From Candidatus Iainarchaeum sp. (GTDB lineage Archaea; Iainarchaeota; Iainarchaeia; Iainarchaeales; UBA10219): a DNA stretch of 64,000 bases. The notes under the pieces are model-generated. The model saw only the letters and a program-made list of their open reading frames with translations. It did no database searches and was not told where the DNA came from. The DNA is taken from NCBI GenBank assembly GCA_018304425.1, contig JAGVWE010000003.1, positions 138,413 through 202,412 of the forward strand, given 5' to 3'. Both the position numbers and the translations under genes were made by a program. Positions 31,998-36,228 of the stretch are shown one piece after another. Position 1 is the stretch's first letter. Every line of letters starts with the position of its first letter.

Positions 31998-32152
31998 GCC
32001 CCATTGAACCCTGCGGGTGAAATGGGGCACGTCCGCAAGTGCCAGTTGACCAGGGCAGTGTCCTGCAAGGCAGGACACGTTTCCCCGAAGACACAGTCTT
32101 CGGGGCCTCGTCCCCAAGGGGACAAGGTCGCAGGCCTTTTGTAAAAAGGCCT
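31998..32152 (+). repeat. array of five hairpins directly before tRNA-Val
   Basis: Successive near-perfect inverted repeats fill this stretch. (0) 31998-32028: arms GCCCCATT/AATGGGGC, then GA/GA opposed, then ACCC/GGGT. (1) 32058-32078: GTGTCCTGC/GCAGGACAC. (2) 32083-32105: CCCCGAAGAC/GTCTTCGGGG. (3) 32110-32123: GTCCCC/GGGGAC. (4) 32132-32152: AGGCCTTTT/AAAAGGCCT. The tRNA starts one base later at 32154. Hairpins 2-3 joined by CCTC and followed by AAGGTC match a unit in the array at 35886-36048 with paired changes. The only TATA-like element nearby is GTTTAAAAGG near 31939, so the array may be a transcribed leader of the tRNA. No protein gene in 31903-32153. Confidence 0.8.
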
Positions 32153-32153
32153 T

Positions 32154-32225
32154 GGGCGCGTGGTCTATCGGTATGACGTCGCCTTCACACGGCGGAGGTA
32201 GTCGGTTCAATTCCGGCCGCGCCCA
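32154..32225 (+). tRNA. tRNA-Val (anticodon CAC)
   Basis: 72-nt cloverleaf: acceptor GGGCGCG/CGCGCCC with discriminator A, anticodon stem TCGCC/GGCGG (loop TTCACAC, anticodon CAC for GUG), T-arm GTCGG/CCGGC around TTCAATT. The D-arm is weak (GTC/GAC with a TATCGGTAT loop). No CCA is encoded and no intron is seen. There is no TATA box at the usual 25-30 bp; a hairpin array lies immediately upstream. Confidence 0.92.
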
Positions 32226-32306
32226 TTTCTTCCCTTTTTTCCAAGTGCGTGGCCTGCGGTCGGCGAAGGCAAAAGGTTTTATGCACGCACCCCCCACCAA
32301 GTATAT

Positions 32307-35861: not shown

Positions 35862-35873
35862 TGCACGGGGCAG
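35862..35873. repeat. 12-bp duplicate of tRNA-Leu 3' end (att-like)
   Basis: TGCACGGGGCAG here is identical to 36104-36115, the complement of the 3' acceptor/T-arm end of tRNA-Leu. The two copies are direct repeats flanking the 230-bp hairpin array. A chance 12-bp match this close is very unlikely. This is the footprint left by site-specific integration into a tRNA 3' end. Confidence 0.6.
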
Positions 35874-35885
35874 ACCTTTTTACAA

Positions 35886-36048
35886 CCATCAAAAGCTTCG
35901 CTTTTGGTGGCGTCGTCCACGAAGTGGACAACGAAGCCCTGGGAAAACGTCCCCTGCGCGGCAGGGGGCTGGCTTGGCCTATCGGCCTCGCTATTTATGG
36001 CCCACCATCAAAACCTTCGGTTTTGGTGGCCTCGTCCACGAAGTGGAC
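35886..36048. repeat. hairpin array downstream of tRNA-Leu
   Basis: A unit of two hairpins is present twice. Copy a: stem 35886-35896/35900-35910 (11 bp, TTC loop), CGTC, then GTCCAC/GTGGAC (35915-35929). Copy b: stem 36005-36015/36019-36029, CCTC, then GTCCAC/GTGGAC (36034-36048). The first stems differ by a paired G-C to C-G swap next to the loop. Between them lie CCCCTGC/GCAGGGG (35951-35967) and a small GGCC hairpin. The same unit, with a different sequence but the same pairing, is in the array before tRNA-Val. No protein gene in 35814-36103. Confidence 0.8.
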
Positions 36049-36103
36049 AAGGTCTTTAGATGGGCCGACGTATAGCGCGCAGCCGCCGCTATCGTGCGGC
36101 TAA

Positions 36104-36187
36104 TGCACGGGGCAGGATTCGAACCTGCGCACGCACTGAGCGACCGGGTTCTAAGCCCGGCGGATTTGGCCGCTTTCCTACCCGTGC
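36104..36187 (-). tRNA. tRNA-Leu (anticodon UAG)
   Basis: 84-nt class II tRNA: acceptor GCACGGG/CCCGTGC with discriminator A, anticodon stem CCGGG/CCCGG with loop CTTAGAA (anticodon UAG, reading CUA and related Leu codons), a long variable arm, and T-arm GCAGG/CCTGC around TTCGAAT. No encoded CCA or intron. A TATA-like CCTTAAATAAG lies at 36208-36218, about 25 bp upstream, inside an inverted repeat TCAGGCT/AGCCTGA (36202-36226). Confidence 0.95.
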
Positions 36188-36228
36188 AGCAAGAGGATGG
36201 CTCAGGCTTATTTAAGGCGAGCCTGAAT

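Follow-up and report, generated by a model that had tools for sequence, protein, structure and literature searches.

A gene-less hairpin interval behind a tRNA-Leu gene of Candidatus Diapherotrites, probably one of a family of short mobile elements inserting at tRNA borders

The window analysed here, a stretch of 64,000 nucleotides from a genome (G000; 1.48 Mb in 7 contigs) that its protein relatives place in Candidatus Diapherotrites, carries on its minus strand an intact tRNA-Leu(tag) gene, placed at 36104-36187 by Rfam and at 36103-36188 by ARAGORN. A sequence search of the window retrieved TGCACGGGGCAG as an exact 12-bp direct repeat at 35862-35873 and 36104-36115, as a sequence-only reading of this DNA had described. 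The second of these copies is the 3' end (the last 12 nt) of the tRNA-Leu(UAG) gene and the first a displaced copy of the same end, reading CTGCCCCGTGCA on the minus strand. The 230 bp separating the gene from its displaced end contain only hairpins and fold well beyond shuffled sequences on both strands (z -5.6 and -6.6). The overlapping open reading frames of 80-128 aa in this interval lack support and we infer that it holds no credible gene, so that its earlier description as a gene-free hairpin array also stands; a scan against Rfam returned no known RNA family above threshold except the tRNA itself. Under a local first-order Markov model, 7e-5 exact copies of the last 12 nt of tRNA-Leu(tag) are expected within 400 nt downstream. 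Shuffling of the whole window with one mismatch allowed yields a mean of 0.6 matches to the 12-mer, which is less impressive, and the significance of the copy therefore rests on its position and on its recurrence.

Comparison with the rest of the genome, taken in stretches surrounding matches and tRNA genes, resolved the insert into two modular palindromic repeats, A and B. In general, A combines a P1 stem, whose core is CTTTTTACAAAAG, with a GCGAAAACG-like linker and a P3 hairpin; often a P4 hairpin is present as well. The A element of the window (35874-35991, plus strand; copies at L010-L013 and other loci) comprises the P1 start ACCTTTTTACA (35874-35884), two nested hairpins inside P1 (35885-35931), the linker CGAAGCCCTGGGAAAAC (35932-35948), the P3 hairpin (35949-35969) and a P4 region (35970-35991). 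Element B (35991-36103, plus strand), which abuts the tRNA 3' end and has copies at tRNA-Ala(tgc) (L014) and tRNA-Ala(cgc) (L050), extends from CTATTTATG via a stem to ACGTATAGCGCGCAGCCGC..GCGGCTA; its CTATTTATGGCCCA at 35991-36004 pairs with TGGGCC..TATAG at 36061-36074, and its terminal hairpin AGCCGC..GCGGCT ends at 36102. The nested hairpin pair (47 nt) that expands P1 of the A element recurs inside B, on the same strand at 36004-36050, with 94% identity. A palindrome belonging to this nested hairpin, GTCCACGAAGTGGAC (36028-36056), was also seen at many places in G034, a genome of another family. Read outward from the tRNA-Leu gene, the locus thus consists of B and A with their nested hairpins, followed by the 12-bp copy of the tRNA end, the insert being a composite of both modules, which may have arrived together or one after the other.

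The sequence-only reading had named a non-autonomous, MITE-like element as one possibility and suggested looking for other copies of the array. The insert is built of repeats present elsewhere in the genome, and of the two possibilities raised the MITE-like one is favoured: covariance models (E ~1e-3 or better) located about 29 copies of A and about 15 of B in G000. As in MITEs, the units are short, non-coding, multicopy and furnished with common structured ends. In a P1 alignment made by hand from sequences partly picked by similarity to the first model, a procedure that favours structure, P1 is paired in 100% of cells, and the number of cells with both partners changed is 29, whereas shuffles give 6.8. 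The A pattern was not found in viral contigs.

Both repeats are concentrated at tRNA genes. Tracts reaching up to 200 bp from a tRNA gene account for 1.5% of the G000 genome and contain 23 of the 29 A copies and 9 of the 15 B copies, where about 0.4 and 0.2 would be expected. The end facing the tRNA is almost always constant (the P1 end for A, the GCGGCT hairpin end for B), and since the same end points toward the gene on its 5' and 3' sides, the elements lie in mirror orientation. A second A-type array of the window, on the minus strand at 32045-32154 (C5:170457-170566), is located directly upstream of tRNA-Val(cac) (32153-32226), and at tRNA-Val(gac) and tRNA-Gly(gcc) an A copy separates, by eye, the tRNA from an apparent TATA box, which is what an insertion would give. 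This end rule fails at the two tRNA-Leu genes whose 3' end is duplicated, the neighbouring A having its P1 end against the displaced piece of the tRNA. These two genes are also the only ones in G000 with their own 12-mer end downstream, most A and B copies at its tRNAs having no duplicated end; therefore either duplication is dispensable or A and B are also placed in other ways. A-type P1 hairpins are likewise enriched at tRNAs in G029 (14/27). The association is weaker in G013 (only 3/39 near tRNAs) and G025 (6/35), so that the preference for tRNAs varies within the order. Inspection by eye also revealed A copies behind a 23S rRNA and within apparent introns of tRNA-Ser, tRNA-Trp and tRNA-Glu genes of G000, the intron-borne loci being L056 (C4:152360-152538), L049 (C1:296871-297018) and L046 (C3:170050-170190); another A-type element lies in an apparent tRNA intron of a relative (L092, G054).

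Duplication of tRNA ends behind hairpins recurs in G000 itself and in related genomes. In G000, a hairpin and an A element separate tRNA-Leu(CAG) from ATCCTGCCCCGTGCA, located 76 nt downstream of the gene. The syntenic, HAM1-linked tRNA-Leu(tag) of G023, which belongs to another family, has a 20-bp copy with hairpins between, and in a related contig (L147) the displaced copy is visibly decayed and the tRNA-Leu intact. This contig (DAOWAC010000109.1) is labelled Chloroflexota and presents an archaeal tRNA-Leu with the HAM1 neighbourhood as in Diapherotrites, so that its bin is probably mislabelled or mixed. Three genomes that belong to a single genus (g20; G019, G029 and G074) contain about 20 different tRNAs that are followed by hairpins (46-165 bp) and then by a copy of their own end (~16 nt). 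The order in G029 is tRNA, hairpins, P1, GTTC and own 3'-end copy, and inspection revealed it at Ile, Lys, Lys, Gln, Gln, Trp, Pro, Leu and Ser-like genes. Counting 16-mers with 3 mismatches allowed within 350 bp of the tRNA, own-end copies accompany 10/45 tRNAs in G029, 11/41 in G019 and 4/29 in G074, about three of these matches being doubtful; the ends of other tRNAs, used as control, matched in 4/1620, 5/1440 and 1/678 trials, respectively (10 in 3,738 altogether). The arrangement has a weaker, mirrored counterpart at the 5' ends of tRNAs, positions 1-12 or more being copied ~60-250 nt upstream at 8 of the 115 tRNAs of the genus (control, 7/3622). Such 5'-end copies (12-20 nt), with hairpins between, were noted at G029 C2:205159, G029 C2:139863, G074 C75:889 and other sites. 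Assembly error is an unlikely source of tRNA-specific copies in five draft genomes.

The borders of the copied segment were profiled on 21 matches chosen solely by exact identity at positions 63-73. On the upstream side 16/21 are identical to the tRNA at position 58 and 18-21/21 at 59-62, falling to 12/21 at 57, and the base preceding the copy is often unlike the tRNA's own base 57; on the downstream side identity drops to 15, 11 and 6 of 21 at 74-76, position 74 being mostly T. The duplicated segment is therefore about 16 bp long, from the T-loop to the discriminator base (58-73), and does not include CCA. A few copies extend further (G029 C2:254929; G019 C1:25988, where units 1 and 3 are identical), because the array has been tandemly duplicated. 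The copy in the window measures 12 bp, versus roughly 16 bp typically found in relatives, and was either shorter from the outset or has decayed.

Between tRNA and copy, the units vary widely in length and internal sequence and have recognizable ends: 11 of 25 start with a hairpin at the tRNA (2.0 in shuffles), 18 of 25 end with a hairpin near the copy (4.2 in shuffles) and 21 of 25 have TTC near their right end. Similar units occur at different tRNAs, those at G019 C12:12476 and C14:4298 being 98.9% identical over 89 nt with tRNA ends that differ at 8/16 positions, and several other pairs share 34-119 nt at ~85-95%. At a tRNA-Lys locus with a common downstream gene, G029 and G074 bear different units. 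Tandem arrays comprise one to three units, and in the few cases available the copy closest to the tRNA generally has the fewest mismatches (means of 0.4, 2.2 and 2.5 for copies 1-3; n=22, 6 and 2). The comparison for empty sites suggested by the sequence-only reading covered g20, a genus other than that of G000, and no clean empty site with matching flanks was found there; the best pair, a weak candidate, is tRNA-Gln at G019 C17:10488 versus G074 C151:7295, with only 4 common flank bases next to the gene and a syntenic gene further downstream, the G019 site itself having a faint tRNA-end match.

The recurrence of the arrangement, the tRNA-specific copies with fairly sharp borders, the hairpin ends, the similar units at different tRNAs and the decay of a displaced copy lead us to regard the 230-bp interval as probably belonging to an order-wide family of mobile elements, short, non-coding and hairpin-ended, that insert at tRNA borders. 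Inserts on the 3' side begin directly behind the last base of the tRNA, whose end (ideally 58-73) recurs beyond them. If the DNA were cut in staggered fashion at the T-loop and the gene end, and the cuts joined to the element's hairpin ends, filling of the gaps would duplicate the tRNA end as a target-site duplication and leave the tRNA intact. Movement of these non-autonomous elements would depend on a putative factor acting in trans, and recognition of the folded tRNA gene end on either strand might account for the mirrored orientation. It is also possible, if rather doubtful, that a Cas1-independent, CRISPR-like insertion is at work, in which a putative enzyme would recognize folded tRNA gene ends (T-loop or D-loop to border) and add hairpin units on the tRNA-proximal side, each time duplicating the tRNA end, to generate polarised arrays behind, and mirrored in front of, many tRNAs.

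The main rival to insertion of defined elements is template switching at the T-loop, in a replicative or reverse-transcriptive process: synthesis starting from the tRNA 3' end would halt at position 58, switch to a hairpin repeat through the common TTC and return to the tRNA end. It owes this rank to the suitability of position 58 and of the TTC microhomology, given that the copies begin close to 58 and that 21 of the 25 right ends have TTC like the T-loop; hairpins favour switching, and arrays also grow by tandem duplication, as at G019 C1:25988. Position 58 of tRNAs is a common site of m1A, a modification that blocks reverse transcriptases and that may occur in this lineage as well. Nonetheless, near-identical units dispersed to different tRNAs and constant ends point to defined elements, and we consider template switching unlikely.

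A scar of integration is still less probable. According to this explanation the tRNAs once hosted an integrated plasmid or virus carrying a tRNA 3' end, the content between attL and attR was mostly deleted and hairpin repeats were collected later. Indeed, tRNA genes are the usual targets of archaeal integrases and a partial tRNA copy at the far end is normal (PMC8371274, PMC9897764), and integrase genes are located next to tRNA-Thr in G000 and, judged by eye, next to a tRNA-Ile in G019. However, the archaeal integrations described at tRNAs are kilobases long, about 9-23 kb in one study (PMC9897764), whereas here the same class of gene-less unit of 46-165 bp lies behind ~20 different tRNAs, and similar units are found at different ones. 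Since each of these tRNAs is accompanied by its own last ~16 nt, a single att site of a tyrosine integrase cannot explain the units, and the integrase-type geometry advanced by the sequence-only reading is not supported. Least probable of all, and quite improbable, is that the hairpins are functional RNA parts of pre-tRNAs (terminators, processing signals or intron structures) kept by selection, with duplicated ends as by-products of gene conversion: their position right against tRNA ends, the five consecutive T (T5) of A, which resemble an archaeal-type terminator, and the paired, covarying P1 stem suit such a role, but only some tRNAs carry them, copies also exist away from tRNAs, A elements in leaders turn their other strand to the tRNA and would give a different RNA, and the units at the tRNA-Lys locus differ between G029 and G074.

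tRNA genes are the commonest docking sites of mobile DNA, and the known users of these sites carry their own recombinase and have a fixed site. Tyrosine-integrase elements share with the hairpin units an intact tRNA on one side, a displaced 3' fragment on the other and the involvement of the T-loop region, but differ from the inserts described here, which span 46-230 bp, have no genes and are found at many tRNAs with tRNA-specific copies; the absence of an encoded integrase and of a single att site, with ~20 different tRNA ends in use, speaks against this class. Archaeal MITEs and palindrome-associated derivatives of IS200/IS605 are comparable as short, non-autonomous palindromic repeats, presumably moved in trans. 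IS200/IS605 insertions cause no target duplication, and the duplication, like the different end hairpins, by eye, of the Y1 element of G000, speaks against an IS200/IS605-derived origin (PATE). CRISPR arrays likewise alternate a repeat (here the tRNA end) with inserts beside a fixed sequence, the nearest copy being usually the most exact; they differ in having Cas1 and foreign spacers, whereas our inserts are mutually related hairpin repeats in one to three units and the genomes have no cas1, on which grounds a CRISPR array was discarded. Casposons insert at the very 3' end of tRNA genes (tRNA-Leu in Methanosarcina mazei, tRNA-Pro in Aciduliprofundum boonei) with a duplication of 14-15 bp (PMC6977970). 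The insertion site and the size of the duplication recall those of the hairpin units (~16 bp, 58-73), but the M. mazei duplication consists of the last 4 bp of tRNA-Leu and 10 bp of flank, whereas ours is inside the tRNA, comprising its last ~16 nt. Moreover, casposons bear genes, terminal inverted repeats and Cas1, unlike these gene-less units in genomes without Cas1. Palindromic GC clusters and double-hairpin elements of fungal mitochondria are tiny, gene-less and apparently mobile, and they merge and nest (PMC4478555); they differ in their duplications of 2-3 nt (AG, ACT), and no fixed targeting of tRNA borders is described in that work. Our literature search for such elements in DPANN archaea gave no match, its journal coverage being incomplete so that an earlier description may exist.

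The hairpin units of Diapherotrites, a little-known lineage of archaea, seem to be mobile elements of a kind not described before, devoid of genes and directed at tRNAs. A family of this sort, using many tRNAs, copying the segment from T-loop to end of each and forming arrays, would point to a new integration activity, whose insertions parallel the casposon and CRISPR reaction without Cas1. It is tempting to speculate that the units may also show the origin of tRNA flanks, intron inserts and partial tRNA genes in DPANN archaea.

As for candidate enzymes, Cas1 (PF01867) is absent from G000 (an assembly 92.6% complete), G019, G023, G029 and G074, and a casposase or Cas1 was therefore rejected as mobiliser; the domain is present in 8 of the 68 genomes of the order. 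A search of G000 restricted to PF01797 and PF00589 identified no transposase or recombinase tied to the elements and no autonomous parent for them. It retrieved one IS200-like Y1 gene and two or three tyrosine-recombinase matches, two of which resemble halves of one gene. The Y1 protein was set aside as mobiliser because its gene is single-copy and its end hairpins are unlike those of A and B by eye, an argument of little weight. The sequence-only reading had suggested a search for an integrase acting at the same tRNA; the only integrase gene found to adjoin a tRNA in G000 is located instead at tRNA-Thr(CGT), where it is apparently interrupted by an IS200-like element at a contig break. At this locus (L190/L193 and L194; C1:1-1405 and C7:1-600 of G000), the Y1 transposase gene apparently lies inside the tyrosine-integrase gene, which is split over two contig ends.
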